Shown: one piece after another, positions 18,057-24,942 of the stretch | How positions within the stretch are numbered: position 1 is the first letter of the stretch | How the letters are laid out: each line of letters starts with the position of its first letter | IMG/VR virus record: IMGVR_UViG_3300014962_000024 | Location: 1-36,021 of that record | DNA: 36,021 nucleotides | Direction: 5' to 3' (one strand) | Source: a virus | Made by a program: the position numbers and the translations under genes | The notes under the pieces: model-generated | The model's database searches: none | What the model was told of the DNA's origin: nothing | The model's input: the letters and a program-made list of their open reading frames with translations, nothing else

Positions 18057-18533
18057 ATGCAAACATTCCTACCCTACGACAACTTCGCGAGCTCTGCCCA
18101 TGTGCTCGACAACAAGCGTCTCGGCAAGCAACGCGTCGAGACGCTGCAAATCCTCAACGCGCTGCGCGTCCCCAACTACGGCTGGAAGAACCACCCCGCC
18201 GTGCGTATGTGGATCGGGCATGAGTATCTGCTGTGCGTCTACGGCAAGGTGATGTGCAACGAGTGGGTGCGGCGTGGGTTCGCTGACACCTGCTGGCTGA
18301 AGATCAACGCGATCCAGAAAGAGATCATGCGTGATAACCCGACGAGTAACCTGATGGGAGCCAACCCTTGGTGGTTGACCGATCTCCGCCTAACACGCTC
18401 ACACCAATCCAACCTCATACGAAAGGACCCCGAGCACTATCGTCCGTTGTTCCCCGACGTGCCGCCCGACCTTCCATATTTCTGGCCCAACAAAGAGAAA
18501 CCGAGAGCAGGAGTAATGAATGAAGCCGCATGA
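18057..18533 (+). CDS. Pyrimidine-dimer DNA glycosylase-like protein (MSMEG_6728 family)
   Basis: The 158-aa protein begins MQTFLPYDNFASSAHVLDNKRLGKQRVETLQILNAL and continues with YGWKNHPAVRMWIGHEYLLCVYGKVMCNEWVRRG. This is the pattern of the MSMEG_6728 family, related to the T4 endonuclease V type (Pyr_excise) family that removes UV pyrimidine dimers. The conserved DNKRLGKQRVE, HPAV and W/G residues are present. In T4 the N-terminal Thr is the catalytic amine; here the second residue is Gln, so activity is uncertain. Start motif GTAACTCAGAGGAGTAACC. Confidence 0.72.
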   Translation: MQTFLPYDNFASSAHVLDNKRLGKQRVETLQILNALRVPNYGWKNHPAVRMWIGHEYLLCVYGKVMCNEWVRRGFADTCWLKINAIQKEIMRDNPTSNLMGANPWWLTDLRLTRSHQSNLIRKDPEHYRPLFPDVPPDLPYFWPNKEKPRAGVMNEAA

Positions 18534-18867
18534 CGTTCTAACCCAAGCGAGTAACCTGATCGGCGAGCGCGGTCAGGACTACGGCGGGATCGAGGATAAC
18601 TTCTCGAACATCGCCAACATATTCACCCGCATGACCGGCAAGGCGTTCGACGCATACGACGTCGCGCTGGTCATGGTCGCCGTGAAGATCGCTCGCATCC
18701 GACAGTCGCCCTACAAGGACGACAACTATCTGGACGCGATCAACTACCTCGCGATCGCACATGAGCTGCGCCCGAACCCACCGCAAGTTCCCCCCGCTCT
18801 CTATGATGAGCCGGTCGAAACTCCAGTGGACAAACTGCGCCGGCTGGCGAGAGCAGGGAGAGTATGA
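18520..18867 (+). CDS. DUF6378-like phage protein
   Basis: The 115 aa read VLTQASNLIGERGQDYGGIEDNFSNIANIFTRMTGKAFDAYDVALVMVAVKIARIRQSPYKDDNYLDAINYLAIAHEL, the pattern of DUF6378 (short helical phage proteins with RxxDYG, DVALxMvxvKxAR and DnylDaxxYlaia). The arrangement of acidic residues on helices recalls MazG-like nucleotide pyrophosphohydrolases, but the diagnostic ExxE motifs are not clear. It overlaps the glycosylase-like gene by 14 bases and the next gene by ATGA. Confidence 0.75.
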   Translation: MKPHDVLTQASNLIGERGQDYGGIEDNFSNIANIFTRMTGKAFDAYDVALVMVAVKIARIRQSPYKDDNYLDAINYLAIAHELRPNPPQVPPALYDEPVETPVDKLRRLARAGRV

Positions 18868-19067
18868 GCGTATTTCACCCGGAGGGCGGCATGCCGAGAT
18901 TGATCCGCTTCGTGCCGTCGTCGCAGATGCCAAGCGACGACACCCTAACAACCTATGACCCCAAGTATAACTTGGTGATCATAAACAAGGAGCTCTACGA
19001 CAGATCAGAGTTCTACATCCAGTATCAAGCAATCCGCGCCACCACCGCGCTCGTTATCGACAACTAA
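18864..19067 (+). CDS. 67-aa protein, unknown
   Basis: MSVFHPEGGMPRLIRFVPSSQMPSDDTLTTYDPKYNLVIINKELYDRSEFYIQYQAIRATTALVIDN starts in a four-base ATGA overlap with the DUF6378-like gene and so is probably translationally coupled to it. It has a beta-rich middle. A second possible start at MPRLIRF exists. No family recognised. Confidence 0.6.
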   Translation: MSVFHPEGGMPRLIRFVPSSQMPSDDTLTTYDPKYNLVIINKELYDRSEFYIQYQAIRATTALVIDN

Positions 19068-19091
19068 CCCCTACCCACAGGAGTAACCACC

Positions 19092-20174
19092 ATGAAGCTC
19101 AACGATGTCATCCGCCACATGCCCCGCTGGTATAAGTCACGCATCTCCGTGCACCTGTCATCAGCGCCCGGCCGTGGCAAGTCTACGGCGATCGAGGCTG
19201 CGCCTCGCATCATCGGCGACAAGCTCGGGCTCAACATCGGCGTCGTCGTCATCAACGCCGCCATGCTCACCCCGATGCACGTTCTTGGGTTCGGCGTGCC
19301 CAAGCACAACGACACCCACTCGCAGATGATCTTCACCGATCCGTTCTTCTGGACTACCCAAGAGGGTAAGCGCCTCGACGAGTATGATGGAGGCATCATC
19401 TTCATCGACGAGGCCGACAAGGCCGACGTCGACGTCAAGAAGGTGTTCGGCGAGGGTCGTCTGACGGGTCGCTTCGGTCCGCATCGTCTGCCCGACGGCT
19501 GGGTCGTCTGGTCCGCCGGCAATCGTGCGTCCGATCGATCGGGCTCCACCAAGTCGCTCGACCATGAGATCAACCGCACGAAGATGGTCAACATCTCCGA
19601 CGATCTGGATAGCTGGATCGACTGGGCCGATCGCAACGGCGCGCTGCCCGTCACCAAGTCCTTCGCGCAGTCCAACTTCGAGATCGTCTTCGCTGCCGGC
19701 GTCCCCGACAAGCAGGGTCCGTGGTGCACGCCGCGCTCCCTCATGCTGGTCGATCGCGACCTGCAGTGCATGATCGAGGAGTATGGCGCGATCCCCGACG
19801 AGCCGTTCGTGCTCGAGGAGATTGCCGGTCTGATCGGTGACGGCGCTGCTGCGCAGCTCTGGTCGCACATCAAGTTGGAGATGACGCTGCCCAAGTTCGC
19901 CGACATCGTCGCCGCTCCGGACAAGACGCCGGTGCCCGCCGCCGCCGACGCGCGCATGCTCGTCTGCTACCACGTCGCGCATCAGGTTACGGCCGACACC
20001 ATCGAGGCGGTGATCAAGTATGTGTCGCGTCTGCCTGATCCGTTCGCCATCACCTTCTGCAAGGCGGCGGTGCAGCGCGCTCCCATGCTGCAGGTCAGCA
20101 AGCCGATGCTCGAGTGGACGCGCAAGAACAACGCGCTCATGACGCTCATGCACTCGCTGCAGGCGATCAAGTAA
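19092..20174 (+). CDS. MoxR-type AAA+ ATPase
   Basis: The 360-aa protein has Walker A SSAPGRGKST (K30), an A-loop/sensor layout with VVVINAAMLTPMHVLGFGVP, Walker B GGIIFIDEADKAD (D106, E107), and the sensor-1 segment WVVWSAGNRASDRSG. This matches MoxR-like AAA+ ATPases, which act as chaperones or unfoldases, typically with a VWA-domain partner that loads metals or assembles complexes. A VWA/HExxH gene follows at 20776, so the two probably form one machine. The substrate is unknown. Start motif CTACCCACAGGAGTAACCACC. An intragenic palindrome (19354-19369) is present. Confidence 0.85.
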   Translation: MKLNDVIRHMPRWYKSRISVHLSSAPGRGKSTAIEAAPRIIGDKLGLNIGVVVINAAMLTPMHVLGFGVPKHNDTHSQMIFTDPFFWTTQEGKRLDEYDGGIIFIDEADKADVDVKKVFGEGRLTGRFGPHRLPDGWVVWSAGNRASDRSGSTKSLDHEINRTKMVNISDDLDSWIDWADRNGALPVTKSFAQSNFEIVFAAGVPDKQGPWCTPRSLMLVDRDLQCMIEEYGAIPDEPFVLEEIAGLIGDGAAAQLWSHIKLEMTLPKFADIVAAPDKTPVPAAADARMLVCYHVAHQVTADTIEAVIKYVSRLPDPFAITFCKAAVQRAPMLQVSKPMLEWTRKNNALMTLMHSLQAIK

Positions 20175-20186
20175 CCCGGAGGGGTA

Positions 20187-20549
20187 ATGATGGGCGGGTC
20201 GATGGCCTCGGCTCCACCGCCGAACTGGACTATCACATACCACAATGAAACGTGGAGCGCGTTTCTACGCGCTCGCGATCGCTTCAACCTAACAAAAATC
20301 AGACTAGAACGCAGAGGAGTAAACACGATGTCTCTCACAACTCTCACCCTCGAAATCCGCAACGACTTCGACGATCCGATCAAGCACGAAGCCATGCGCG
20401 AAGCAGTCAAGATCGCAGCCCGCGACCTGATCGCCACCGCCACCCTGCTGCAGGAGCGGCAGGTCCCCGAGATCAATCTCTACGAGAACACGATGGAGGG
20501 GTCGACCGAGGTCAATCTGCTGGAAGAGGCGAGCAACCCGGAGGGGTAA
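20187..20549 (+). CDS. Small protein with two possible starts
   Basis: The frame gives 120 aa from ATG at 20187 (after GTAACCCGGAGGGGTA) but also has an in-frame ATG at 20328 after CGCAGAGGAGTAAACACG, which fits the start-associated motif too. The shorter 73-aa form (MSLTTLTLEIRNDFDDPIKHEAMREAVKIAARDLIATATLL...) is compact and helical. The upstream 47 codons (MMGGSMASAPPPNWTITYHNE...) look like a separate former mini-gene fused by loss of its stop. Both products may be made. It lies between MoxR and the VWA gene, so it may serve that system. Confidence 0.6.
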   Translation: MMGGSMASAPPPNWTITYHNETWSAFLRARDRFNLTKIRLERRGVNTMSLTTLTLEIRNDFDDPIKHEAMREAVKIAARDLIATATLLQERQVPEINLYENTMEGSTEVNLLEEASNPEG

Positions 20550-20551
20550 CG

Positions 20552-20767
20552 ATGCACCCCAACACGACCTACAAACAGCTCGTCGAGCTCGTCACCATAG
20601 TTGCTGGCGTTCCCATAAACGGGAACGCCATGGCTACACTTAAAGTCCTCTCGGACAGAGCTCGCGAGTTGCTCGGCGAGGCTCCGCGCGGCGACTTTAC
20701 CTATGACGCCCGCAACGATCAGTATGTGATCCGCATCGACGCCAACCGTTTTCACAAATTCAAATAG
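20552..20767 (+). CDS. 71-aa protein, unknown
   Basis: MHPNTTYKQLVELVTIVAGVPINGNAMATLKVLSDRARELLGEAPRGDFTYDARNDQYVIRIDANRFHKFK starts after AACCCGGAGGGGTAACG. Helices come first, then a beta-hairpin. A perfect 9-bp hairpin (GGCGTTCCC / GGGAACGCC, 20606-20629) lies in the coding sequence. It sits between MoxR and the VWA gene. Function unknown. Confidence 0.6.
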   Translation: MHPNTTYKQLVELVTIVAGVPINGNAMATLKVLSDRARELLGEAPRGDFTYDARNDQYVIRIDANRFHKFK

Positions 20768-20775
20768 GAGTAACC

Positions 20776-22074
20776 ATGTCGGACGCAATCAAACTAACAC
20801 CCTCACAGGCAAGTGAGTGGGACAAGGTCATCTCCGCGCTGACCTTGCACTATCCCGCCTTCTCGCACCTGATGTATTCGTTACTCGACAAGGTAAGCGA
20901 GGAGCATGTCGCCATGTTCACCGACAAAATCCCGGTGGCTGCGACTGACGCCAAGGTGCTCATGCTCAACCCCGAGACGTTCTTCGGCAAGGAGCTCACC
21001 CTGCCGAACCGTGTGTTCATCACCGCGCACGAGCTGCTGCATGTTGTGTTCGAGCATGTCATCCTGTCTTACCGCATAGGGGTAACCGGCAAGGTGCAGC
21101 TCAAGAGCGGCAAGTCGCTGCCATACGACCACGCGACGATGAACAAGGCGATGGACTATATTGTCAATGCTGTGCTCATCCACGACAAGATCGGCGCAAT
21201 GCCGACGGGTCGCTGGGCCGGTCTATATGATCCATCGATCTCGACTGCTGGCGACGACGATGTCATCGACGTCTACGAGAAGCTCTACCGCCGGCAAGGC
21301 GGCAAGGGTGGCGGCGGCGCGGGTCAGCCGGGTCAGGGCGATAAGCAGGGCAAGGACCATGGCGGTGGGTTCTGCCAGCACGAGCAGCCCGGCTCGGCGA
21401 CCGGCAAGTCCGCAGCGCAGACTGTCGCCGACCACAACCCTATGCAGGTGCAGACCGCCGTCGCTGCCGCCGTCAACGCCGCGCGCATCATGGGCAAGTT
21501 ACCCGGCGGGTTAGCCCGTGTCATGGACCGCATCCTGCAGCCGTCCGTCAACTGGCGCGAGCATCTGCGCGCACTCATCATGCGCAAGGCCGGCTCGGGC
21601 GGTTACGACTGGACCAAGGCTGACGAGGAGCTGATGGTCCGCGACATTTACGCGCCGCGCCGCTCGGGGCATGGCGTCGACACCATCGTCTGCGCGATCG
21701 ATACGTCAGGTTCTGTCACACAGGCCGACTACGATCTGTTCTACGGCGAGGCGGCGGGCATCATCGACGACATCCGCCCGCGCAAGCTGCACGTCCTCTG
21801 GTGCGACACGCACATCAATCATTCCGAGGAGATTGACAATGCGCAGGACCTGCTGTCAGCCAAGATCGATGCTGGTGGCGGCACGTCGTTCGTGCCTGTG
21901 TTCGACGAGATTACCCGCATGGGTATCAAGCCGGACGCGCTCATCTATCTCACCGATGGGCAGGGCACGTTCCCACAGCAAGCGCCGGACTACCACGTAA
22001 TCTGGGGATCAATCTACGAGCCGAGCAAGTATCCGTTTGGCGACGTTGTGCAGGTCCCCAAACAAGCTGCCTGA
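20776..22074 (+). CDS. VWA-domain protein with HExxH metallopeptidase-like motif
   Basis: The 432-aa partner of the MoxR ATPase. Residues 83-94 are TAHELLHVVFEH, a zincin motif (H85, E86, H89), with an AMDYIVNAVL helix after it, as in DUF2201-type metallopeptidases. A Gly/Gln/Lys-rich linker (about 170-210) leads to a C-terminal VWA domain with MIDAS DTSGS (D309), GGGTSF and YLTDGQG. In bacteria, MoxR plus DUF2201/VWA pairs are common and thought to process or assemble proteins. In this phage the target is unknown; virion assembly or host takeover are possible. Preceded by ATAGGAGTAACC. Two intragenic palindromes (21499-21513 and 21911-21925) lie in its second half. Confidence 0.85.
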   Translation: MSDAIKLTPSQASEWDKVISALTLHYPAFSHLMYSLLDKVSEEHVAMFTDKIPVAATDAKVLMLNPETFFGKELTLPNRVFITAHELLHVVFEHVILSYRIGVTGKVQLKSGKSLPYDHATMNKAMDYIVNAVLIHDKIGAMPTGRWAGLYDPSISTAGDDDVIDVYEKLYRRQGGKGGGGAGQPGQGDKQGKDHGGGFCQHEQPGSATGKSAAQTVADHNPMQVQTAVAAAVNAARIMGKLPGGLARVMDRILQPSVNWREHLRALIMRKAGSGGYDWTKADEELMVRDIYAPRRSGHGVDTIVCAIDTSGSVTQADYDLFYGEAAGIIDDIRPRKLHVLWCDTHINHSEEIDNAQDLLSAKIDAGGGTSFVPVFDEITRMGIKPDALIYLTDGQGTFPQQAPDYHVIWGSIYEPSKYPFGDVVQVPKQAA

Positions 22075-22263: not shown

Positions 22264-22929
22264 ATGAGCAAGCTACGCAAGCCGCCCCCAAAGACGATCG
22301 GCAACAAGGTAATCGAGCGCGTGGAGGACACGCTCGCTACACTCTACCGACGCATGTGCCACCACATCGACTTCGAGTTCACCGAGCAGATGGCGTATGA
22401 GACGCTCGTCCGCCCCGAAGACGTCAAGATCGTCAAGCGCGCGTCGGAGCTCTACAGACGTTTCAGGAGTTACTACTTTGCGGGCGGCGCTGCGCGCATG
22501 CTCGTCGGTGAGTATGAAATTCGTATCGAGTTTGACCCCAAGCTGTGTTTCATGCCGCCGAACTACCTTGTGACCGGCCCGAGGCTATTAGATGGCAACC
22601 ATACTGATTTCTGTAGGGCTATTGCGCCATGGATGGAGCAGATCGTGCCGATCTACGAGATGCACTCTACTACGTTATATGCGTGGAGAGAGTTGTGCGA
22701 GCTGACGGGTGGCGACTACGCCCGCATCCGCGTTCTCTGGCCGACGATCGACGTCATAGCGACGACGGCGGGCTACACCGTCCCGAAGATGGGTAACCCG
22801 CGCGGGTTACCAGCGACGTCGCCCAGTCTGCGCGAGAGGCTCAACATCGGCCAGACATTTGTCAATTCCGCGATGATGATGCCGGAGCCGGATAAGCGCG
22901 CTCGCCCGATCGAGCTCTTCATCGAGTAA
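22264..22929 (+). CDS. 221-aa soluble protein, unknown
   Basis: MSKLRKPPPKTIGNKVIERVEDTLATLYRRMCHHIDFEFTEQ... has a helical N-terminus (residues 15-75) and a mixed C-terminal half with YEIRIEFDPKLCFMPPN and QIVPIYEMHSTTLYAWRELCELTGGDYARIRVLWPTI. No domain I know. It carries a 20-bp perfect palindrome (22792-22811, coding GNPRGLP). The gene is followed by a hairpin. It probably belongs to the early gene string. Function unknown. Confidence 0.6.
   Translation: MSKLRKPPPKTIGNKVIERVEDTLATLYRRMCHHIDFEFTEQMAYETLVRPEDVKIVKRASELYRRFRSYYFAGGAARMLVGEYEIRIEFDPKLCFMPPNYLVTGPRLLDGNHTDFCRAIAPWMEQIVPIYEMHSTTLYAWRELCELTGGDYARIRVLWPTIDVIATTAGYTVPKMGNPRGLPATSPSLRERLNIGQTFVNSAMMMPEPDKRARPIELFIE
22792..22811 (+). 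repeat. Perfect 20-bp palindrome in the 22264 gene
   Basis: GGTAACCCGCGCGGGTTACC is its own reverse complement and codes for GNPRGLP. It is a perfect, inverted version of the dispersed motif (GGTAACCC arms). This is the longest perfect member seen, inside a gene, with codon phase different from copies in the polymerase. Confidence 0.85.
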
Positions 22930-22996: not shown

Positions 22997-23134
22997 ATGC
23001 AGCGCAATGACCTACTACATATAGACGGGTCGCCGCTTCGTCAACCCCTAAAATACCTTGAGGTAACCGAATGGATTATTGGTTCATCGATTACGAAACT
23101 TATTACTCCACAGAGTATTCACTCCGACGCATGA
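22997..23134 (+). CDS. Possible 45-aa ORF overlapping the polymerase start
   Basis: ATG after CCACCCACAGGAGTTTGCGCCC opens 45 codons (MQRNDLLHIDGSPLRQPLKYLEVTEW...) in a different frame from the polymerase and overlapping its first 60 bases. The left part of the start motif supports it. Alternatively it is a leader that couples translation to the polymerase. Low confidence. Confidence 0.35.
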   Translation: MQRNDLLHIDGSPLRQPLKYLEVTEWIIGSSITKLITPQSIHSDA

Positions 23135-24942
23135 CGGTGCCGGAGTATATCCTTGACCCCCGCTTCGAGTGCATGGGCGCGGCGGTGAAGAAGCTGGGCT
23201 CTGCAGGCAAGTGGATCGACGCGAAGGACCTGCCGGCGTTCTTCGATAGCCTCGACCCGGCGAACACCATGCTGATCTCGCACAATGCGTTGTTCGACGC
23301 GTGCATCACGGCGTGGGTCTATGGCTTCCACCCCAAGCTCACAGGCGACACGCTGGGCATTGCTCGCGCGTCTCTGGGGCACGAGCTCCGCAGCCTATCG
23401 CTGGCGTCCGTTGCGGTGCATCTCGGCGTGGGCGTGAAGGGCGACACGATCAAAGCGGTCACCGGGATGAACGCCGCCGCCATCAAGCAGGCCGGGCTCT
23501 GGGACGCATACACAAGTTACGCCATCAACGACGCCGAGCAGTGCGCCAACATCTGGCAGGAGCTGGTGATCAATCGTCGTTTCCCGGCGCGCGAGATCGT
23601 CCTGATGGACCGCATCATCCGCTGCGCGACGCGGCCGAAGTTCCAGCTCGACCAGAACGTCCTGCACCTACACCTTGCCGAAGTGAAGGCGAAGAAAGAA
23701 GCGCTGATGCAGCGCATTGGGTTCTCGCGTGAGGACCTGATGTCCAATGATAAGTTCGCCGCCGCGCTCATTACCCTCGGGGTAACGCCGCCGCGCAAAA
23801 TATCTCCAGCCACAGGAAAAGAGACATGGGCGTTCTCGAAGACGGACCCGCAGTTCATCGAGCTCGAGGAGCACGAAAGTCACGAGGTGCAGGCGCTGGT
23901 CGCCGCGCGCCTTGGGGTGAAGACCACACTGGAGGAGAAGCGCACGGAGCGCTTCATTGCGCTGTCGAACCTGCAGTGGGTGGAGGGCGATCGCTGGATG
24001 CCTATTCCGCTGCGCTACGGCGGAGCGCATACGCACCGTCTCTCTGGCGAGTGGAAGCTGAACCTGCAGAACCTACCCCGTGGGGGTAATCTGCGCCGCG
24101 CACTCATCGCACCGCCCGGCTACAAGGTCATCGCTCCGGACAGTTCGCAGATCGAGGCGCGCATCAACGGCTGGCTCGGTGGCGAGATCGAGCTGATGCA
24201 GGCGTTCCGCGAGGAGCGCGACATCTACTCGGAGTTCGCGTCGACGGTCTTTGGGTATCCTGTTAATAAGAAGATGAAGAAGGAACGCTTCCTTGGCAAA
24301 ACTTCGATACTCGGGCTCGGCTACGGGATGGGCTGGGCGAAGTTCCAAGCGACTGTCAAAATACAGTCTCGTCTGCAGCTCGGCGAAGAAATTCTTCTCG
24401 ACGACGTCGAAGCTCAGCGCATCGTTCAGACTTACCGCAACACATACGCAGGTATCGTGCGTTCGTGGAACGCGCTCGGCGCTGCCGGCATCCCGGCGCT
24501 GGTCAGCGGTGGCGGGTTCGAGATCGGCCCATGTCGGTTCGAGCAGAACAGGATCAGATTACCCAGCGGGTTATATCTTCACTACCACGACCTGAAGTTC
24601 GACGCCGGCAAGCGAGAGTGGACATACAGCTACGGCGGCATGCCCAAGCGCACATATGGGGCAAAGCTGCAGGAGAACATCACGCAGGCGCTGGCGCGTA
24701 TTGTGGTGATGGACGCGGCGCTTGCTATCGAGAAGCGGTTCGAGCGCGAGTTCGATAACCCGCCGGGGTTAGCGCTGCAGGTGCACGACGAGTTGGTCTA
24801 CATCGTGCCGGACGCGCTGGTCGATCGCGCTGTTGAGATATGCGGCGAAGAGATGCGCCGGCCGCCGGTGTGGGCTCCGAACTTGCCGCTGAGCAGCGAG
24901 TGCGATGTAGGCCAGAACTATGGTGACGCCAAGCCGGCGTAA
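23071..24942 (+). CDS. DNA polymerase I, family A, with 3'-5' exonuclease domain
   Basis: The 623-aa replicative polymerase lacks a 5'-3' nuclease. DEDD exonuclease: FIDYET (D7, E9), SHNALFDACI and YAINDAEQC. Polymerase motif A is APDSSQIEAR (D357; Tyr of the usual DYSQIE is Ser here), motif B is RFLGKTSILGLGYG (R406, K410, Y418), motif C is QVHDELVY (D573). The residue equivalent to E. coli Phe762 is Leu414, a variant discussed for viral PolA as linked to temperate or slower replication. SD GAGG followed by TAACCGA precedes ATG. Four intragenic palindromes occur (23771, 24073, 24559, 24756), in all three codon phases. Confidence 0.93.
   Translation: MDYWFIDYETYYSTEYSLRRMTVPEYILDPRFECMGAAVKKLGSAGKWIDAKDLPAFFDSLDPANTMLISHNALFDACITAWVYGFHPKLTGDTLGIARASLGHELRSLSLASVAVHLGVGVKGDTIKAVTGMNAAAIKQAGLWDAYTSYAINDAEQCANIWQELVINRRFPAREIVLMDRIIRCATRPKFQLDQNVLHLHLAEVKAKKEALMQRIGFSREDLMSNDKFAAALITLGVTPPRKISPATGKETWAFSKTDPQFIELEEHESHEVQALVAARLGVKTTLEEKRTERFIALSNLQWVEGDRWMPIPLRYGGAHTHRLSGEWKLNLQNLPRGGNLRRALIAPPGYKVIAPDSSQIEARINGWLGGEIELMQAFREERDIYSEFASTVFGYPVNKKMKKERFLGKTSILGLGYGMGWAKFQATVKIQSRLQLGEEILLDDVEAQRIVQTYRNTYAGIVRSWNALGAAGIPALVSGGGFEIGPCRFEQNRIRLPSGLYLHYHDLKFDAGKREWTYSYGGMPKRTYGAKLQENITQALARIVVMDAALAIEKRFEREFDNPPGLALQVHDELVYIVPDALVDRAVEICGEEMRRPPVWAPNLPLSSECDVGQNYGDAKPA

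Follow-up and report, generated by a model that had tools for sequence, protein, structure and literature searches.

ATPases of the MoxR clade form rings that work together with a partner protein containing a von Willebrand factor A (VWA) domain, and the metal ion-dependent adhesion site (MIDAS) of that domain binds the substrate peptide, as described for midasin, RavA/ViaA and others (PMC7159879). In phages the closest described systems are gp24 and gp25 of N4, which are middle transcripts (PMC4193335), and a pair of a MoxR ATPase and a VWA-metallopeptidase that was noted in jumbo phages in 2021 (PMC7824862). Here we describe a pair of this type at positions 19092–22074 of IMGVR_UViG_3300014962_000024, an IMG/VR virus record of 36,021 bases that was analysed as a whole and is referred to below as the window. 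A preliminary description of the window presented the pair as if it were a surprise, which it is not, as gp24 and gp25 are core genes of the N4-like phages and the pair has been described in jumbo phages. The N4 genes have nevertheless been without an assigned function for years, and the pair is present in hundreds of phage genomes where it is usually labelled "HNH endonuclease". We consider it probable that the two proteins constitute an ATP-driven remodelling machine with a built-in protease that acts in the middle (replication) phase of infection. The residues of the two proteins were compared in two sets of sequences, i.e., divergent phages (the window partner together with 17 others that are 19–47% identical to it) and the clade of the window. 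The latter was assembled by IMG/VR scans with clade alignments and supplemented with the window and a Rhizobium phage; the searches were begun from either gene and were therefore not limited to pairs, and a few of the clade contigs are near-duplicates. The main features of the pair are the following.

19092–20174, plus strand: MoxR-clade AAA+ ATPase, homologue of N4 gp24, 360 amino acids (aa); matches phrog_1297 and, by profile, the midasin and CbbQ structures
19161–19184, plus strand: Walker A of the ATPase, SAPGRGKS, residues 24–31, read from the sequence; G29 and K30 invariant
19395–19412, plus strand: Walker B of the ATPase, IIFIDE, residues 102–107, read from the sequence; E107 invariant, D106 in 45/47 of the clade
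20776–22074, plus strand: partner with a zincin-like metallopeptidase domain and a VWA-like domain, homologue of N4 gp25, 432 aa; PF13203 and PF09967
21028–21042, plus strand: HExxH motif of the partner, H85-E-L-L-H89; no change in any of the 18 divergent phages or 47 clade contigs
21154–21156, plus strand: D127 of the partner, candidate third metal ligand; invariant in the same 18 and 47
21700–21714, plus strand: MIDAS DxSxS of the partner, DTSGS at residues 309–313, completed by T370 (21883–21885) and D394 (21955–21957); invariant in the same 18 and 47

Domains and residues of the ATPase and its partner

The partner is covered by two Pfam families, DUF2201_N (PF13203, "putative metallopeptidase"; 1e-20, 75 bits relative to a curated cut-off of 23.2) and DUF2201 (PF09967, "VWA-like"; 1.2e-23, 84 bits relative to a curated cut-off of 26.4), and it matches phrog_1314 at 3e-75. 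The ATPase matches phrog_1297 at 1e-58, while its single-sequence Pfam signal is weak. Both PHROG families are thus present on the same strand with the ATPase upstream of the partner, and judged from these matches the family assignment of the pair is one of whole-domain homology and not of a chance motif. Among the 18 divergent partners not only the HExxH and MIDAS residues (H85, E86, H89, D309, S311, S313, T370, and D394) are invariant but also A125, D127, N131, D152, G369, and the first methionine. In the 47 clade partners HExxH, D127, N131 and all five MIDAS residues are present without exception.

The predicted structure of the partner (mean predicted local distance difference test, pLDDT, 86) places HELLH in a helix spanning residues 76–91 and D127 and N131 in a second helix (119–136), and a VWA fold was matched on the model (VIA-align Z 12.2 over 132 residues at 2.9 Å). 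Profile searches with the partner gave hints toward M48-type peptidases. Matches to pentatricopeptide structures in the PDB were rejected, as they consist of a 29-residue likeness to designed repeats that the family profile does not support.

The label "HNH endonuclease" deserves comment because it is attached to phrog_1314 and to many RefSeq and GenBank records, and would, if correct, make the partner a nuclease. Pfam, however, covers the whole partner as metallopeptidase plus VWA, and an HNH domain is detected in none of the 18 members. The label is therefore rejected as a mislabelling of a metallopeptidase-VWA protein, and we give the endonuclease explanation practically no credence. The record of phage 121Q calls the partner "T4-gp25-like", apparently because N4 gp25 was confused with T4 gp25.

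The best solved relatives of the ATPase family profile are the AAA domains of midasin (8e-27), and CbbQ/NirQ/NorQ are also among the matches (CbbQ 6e-8). Across 17 ATPase members Pfam recognizes AAA_5 in 10 and bpMoxR in two, whereas the family of MoxR proper (PF07726, AAA_3) does not match the window ATPase and gives weak matches in five of 17 relatives. By sequence, the ATPase is thus a member of the MoxR clade in its broad definition but falls outside the Pfam MoxR family proper. Its AAA+ set is complete, with sensor-1 (N144), the arginine finger (R162) and sensor-2 (R215) in addition to Walker A and Walker B, and the catalytic residues are invariant across the 17 divergent phages. In the 47 clade ATPases G29, K30, E107, N144, and R162 are invariant, and R215 is found in 46.

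Conservation in phages and loss of the peptidase site in bacteria

Of 50,697 phage records searched by tblastn, 465 gave a match to the partner and 301 to the ATPase. The gene neighbourhood was read in 15 divergent isolates (N4, LIT1, Possum, ort11, R2C, D520, At2, CRP-7, Pag-Yong1, S-TIM66, Paride, 121Q, phiTE, PhAER-3, and phage G), and all 15 carry both genes with the ATPase first, usually separated by none or a few small genes. Phage G was a candidate for lacking the ATPase, but this was rejected as the gene is located 4.4 kb upstream of the partner. Within the clade 47 contigs carry both genes and three more have the ATPase at a contig end. One of these three has the partner at the opposite end, which is consistent with circular permutation, and the sequence of the other two breaks off right behind the ATPase, so that contig ends account for all three and loss of the partner was rejected. 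The pair is therefore kept together in 48/48 clade members with enough sequence to tell. The ratio of non-synonymous to synonymous substitution rates (dN/dS) is about 0.05–0.22 for ATPase and partner (eight pairs, with synonymous sites partly saturated) and 0.05–0.20 for a small gene of 73 aa that lies between them; all three genes are under purifying selection.

These observations agree with much of what had been proposed from the letters of the window. The two-gene MoxR/VWA machine stands at exactly the open reading frame coordinates given, its domains are borne out by Pfam and PHROG, and the HExxH and MIDAS motifs that were thought to look intact are so throughout the 18 divergent phages and the 47 clade contigs. 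An active pair would have been called into question, by that account, if related phages often lacked the partner or its metal and MIDAS residues; what was found is retention in 48/48 clade members and 15/15 divergent isolates with invariant residues.

The same conservation bears on the idea that the pair serves host takeover or counter-defence, in which case it would unfold and then degrade or inactivate a host protein such as a transcription or defence factor. The pair does lie among many small genes of early or middle type, MoxR-VWA modules are recurrent in conflict systems (PMC7159879), and in one cyanophage, Planktothrix phage Pag-Yong1, a gene annotated as the anti-CRISPR AcrVA2 (locus L008, 6088–7128) is found two genes downstream of the partner. 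Typical host-specific counter-defence genes are however lost in a patchy manner, unlike the strict conservation over many hosts seen here, and a PADLOC search for known anti-phage defence systems matched no model. We therefore regard counter-defence as unlikely.

Homologues of the pair are also found in bacterial chromosomes. Among 398 genomes sampled from one phylum DUF2201_N scored above the cut-off in 14, and among 185 from one class in 61; the ATPase adjoins in nearly all cases read. The HExxH motif is kept in 34 of 48 bacterial homologues; in the other 14 it has given way to HHxxH, HQxxH, RxxxA, or further variants. MIDAS is changed in two of the 48 and intact in the other 46. These homologues are not a phylogenetically independent sample and one class dominates the count, but in the partner tree the forms without HExxH sit in separate branches. 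As the motif is never lost in the aligned phage partners but lost in 14/48 bacterial ones, the fold by itself does not explain its retention. Catalysis thus looks selected in phages, and from the sequences we infer that phages need the peptidase activity although the core machine is able to function in its absence. The contrast between invariant peptidase and MIDAS residues in phages and loss of the peptidase site in bacteria leads to a concrete prediction, namely ATP-coupled proteolysis.

It is conceivable that the zinc domain is structural and that the pair is a non-proteolytic maturation factor, which loads a cofactor or metal or re-activates a phage or host enzyme in the manner of CbbQ/CbbO, NorQ/NorD, or CoxD/CoxE. 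The extension of the ATPase profile to CbbQ and the weak match of two partners to the CoxE VWA family are in line with this, as are the several bacterial homologues without HExxH that keep MIDAS and ATPase, from which it appears that catalysis is dispensable for the machine. In phages, on the other hand, a site of purely structural use should have drifted as the bacterial one did, yet none of the phage sequences examined deviates from HExxH, which makes this explanation quite improbable.

Loss of the HExxH glutamate or histidines was seen at bacterial loci L076, L077, L080, L086–L089, L091, L092, L116, L117, L119, L128, and L129, where the adjacent ATPase is kept and MIDAS nearly always so; by sequence, these DUF2201_N proteins are likely pseudo-peptidases. 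Next to bacterial pairs of the HHxxH form lies a gene of similar appearance, the product of which starts LSPETL.. or VTPKTV.. (L106, 4115–4903; L111, 4876–5565; L112, 7912–8622), and this is a possible third component there. The bacterial neighbourhoods, which were read without annotation follow-up, gave no consistent functional hint.

Neighbouring genes and the target of the pair

The nearest relatives of the window have genomes of about 60 kb, and the window is therefore probably a fragment of a larger genome. Head and portal genes occupy the minus strand at about 3–8 kb, the terminase is on the plus strand at 8.4 kb, and a replication module comprising PolA, exonuclease, helicase, and primase/helicase is found on the plus strand at 23–33.5 kb. 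The pair forms the front of this module in one operon, with the head and portal genes on the other strand, so that what was first called an early region is rather a replication or middle module. The genes within and around the pair are as follows.

18864–19067, plus strand: 67-aa gene directly upstream of the ATPase; conserved neighbour in 37 clade contigs
20328–20549, plus strand: clade-specific third gene, 73 aa, acidic; homologue inside the pair in 43/47 clade contigs
20552–20767, plus strand: second small open reading frame, 71 aa; not conserved
22264–22929, plus strand: 221-aa gene directly downstream of the partner and before PolA; conserved neighbour (40 clade contigs) that matches neither Pfam nor PHROG
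23071–24942, plus strand: family A DNA polymerase (PolA), Pfam DNA_pol_A at 7.5e-29; same downstream position in 40 clade contigs

The conserved order in the clade is 67-aa gene, ATPase, 73-aa gene, partner, 221-aa gene, and PolA. The preliminary description had two small genes between the pair and asked whether they are conserved with it. Two are indeed there; the first, however, was given a start at 20187 where the likely start is 20328, an ATG preceded by GAGGAG at which the homologue alignments begin, and only this gene accompanies the pair. A homologue was detected by profile (E < 1e-10) in the 43 contigs listed above, with one more being doubtful, while the 71-aa frame was rejected as a conserved component since it is found in the window only among all clade contigs. 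Among isolates the 73-aa gene is limited to four Rhizobium phages, and a search of the complete records of N4 and another 13 divergent isolates, among them phages of jumbo, cyano, and Vequinta type, gave no match. The protein (isoelectric point 4.3) is modelled as a long helix and a hairpin (pLDDT 88), has no Pfam or PHROG family, and gave no significant match in a PDB fold search. It is most likely an adaptor, regulator or dedicated substrate of the pair, and for this one group of phages its conservation singles it out as a candidate for the adaptor or the substrate. It is tempting to speculate further that pair and 73-aa protein make up a dedicated three-part ATP-dependent metalloprotease in which MIDAS captures, the AAA+ ring feeds, the zinc domain cuts, and the 73-aa protein is the adaptor. 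This we propose only tentatively; if true it would add to FtsH, Lon, and Clp a separate class of ATP-dependent protease.

Two side observations concern this region. A pyrimidine dimer DNA glycosylase gene (PF03013, 4e-22) is located upstream of the pair at 18057–18533 and is found in only four clade contigs; cyanophage S-CREM1 likewise carries a MoxR ATPase and a pyrimidine dimer DNA glycosylase (PMC9964418). Very long antisense open reading frames face the ATPase (19161–20243 and 19064–19957, both on the minus strand) and recur across the clade, and they are probably an artefact of GC-rich codon usage.

The gene context also bears on the main rival explanation, in which the pair is a chaperone-protease of virion assembly or maturation that remodels and clips structural proteins. 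Such an assembly role has been proposed for the jumbo phage pair (PMC7824862), and in the archaeal virus ATV the MoxR ATPase p618 is present in virions and binds the VWA protein p892, a virion role having been inferred there (PMC4124505). Purified virions of phAPEC6 contain a 49.52 kDa "ATPase" (PMC7247149) whose mass and gene position agree with those of the 121Q homologue (49.51 kDa), the 121Q pair lies among structural genes, and in roseophages a second structural module is found near the pair. The phAPEC6 list does however also contain single-stranded DNA-binding protein, RecA, and thymidylate synthase, so that co-purification carries little weight, and it does not include the 54-kDa partner (PMC7247149). 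Moreover, N4 gp24/25 are middle genes (PMC4193335). Phages of podo, myo, and jumbo type whose virions are unrelated share the pair, and so do bacterial chromosomes, which makes it improbable that the ancestral role lay in acting on a virion-specific substrate. A virion function is thus a possibility that we take seriously but do not find probable. It overlaps with that of a remodelling protease in general, as one machine could serve either target.

The ATP-driven remodelling protease proposed at the outset builds on the gene pair, its domain make-up, the strict co-occurrence, the invariant catalytic and MIDAS residues, and purifying selection, all of which were observed in this analysis. In line with it, the evolutionary distances of ATPase and partner correlate (r = 0.74, Mantel p = 0.0005). 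From analogy with the known systems we infer the steps by which it would work. First, the ATPase would form a ring of MoxR/midasin/CbbQ type and hydrolyse ATP. Second, the partner would dock on this ring, and the metal-loaded MIDAS of its C-terminal VWA domain would grip an acidic or extended segment of the substrate. Third, the N-terminal HExxH zinc domain would cut the exposed substrate chain, and the 73-aa acidic protein may act as adaptor, regulator or dedicated substrate. The machine would be produced in the middle (replication) phase and would remodel and clip a complex that is active at that time. That the target is a replication-phase protein complex is a guess, which is favoured because N4 gp24 and gp25 are middle transcripts and because the pair precedes PolA in the clade of the window.

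Several points weigh against this proposal. In the literature searched, no phage protein of this type was found to have been assayed biochemically. Zinc might be held by the HExxH domain without any proteolysis, and fold searches with the whole partner model, in which the VWA domain gave all the matches, returned no zincin of known structure. The Mantel test of the correlated distances leaves the shared phage phylogeny in. Finally, middle-phase timing is also compatible with a virion role.

Comparison with known systems

The window shares with N4 gp24/gp25 and the N4-like phages (Schitoviridae) the two genes, their order, domains, and invariant residues. The identity to N4 is however low (27% for the partner and 17% for the ATPase), N4 has no 73-aa gene, and the N4-like phages form a separate, fully supported branch in the partner tree. 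The architecture is also that of the group 2.2 jumbo phages (PMC7824862), of which the 121Q and Paride members align with the window and keep all motifs, but these phages have large genomes, 121Q and Paride lack the third gene, and the 121Q pair is embedded in structural genes. The viral MoxR ATPase and VWA partner of ATV (p618/p892), which are likened to the window by description and not by sequence, differ in being a virion component and in having no peptidase domain (PMC7824862).

Bacterial chromosomal MoxR and DUF2201 pairs consist of two adjacent genes as in the window, and differ by the loss of HExxH in 14/48. Midasin, CbbQ/CbbO, NorQ/NorD, and RavA/ViaA likewise combine a MoxR-clade ATPase with a MIDAS-bearing VWA partner. 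To our knowledge the VWA partners of the midasin, CbbQ, NorQ, and RavA types have no zincin domain, and the substrates are different. The nearest isolates are the Rhizobium phages RHph_TM3_14A, TM27A/B, and TM29, with a partner that is 44.6% and an ATPase that is 50.6% identical, which have the third gene and PolA downstream but carry extra small genes inside the pair. As far as the literature searched shows, what the window and its relatives add to these systems is a fixed pair with a clade-specific third gene in a clade of phages of about 60 kb, a peptidase site that is kept without exception in phages while lost repeatedly in bacteria, and the recognition that the label "HNH endonuclease" is wrong.

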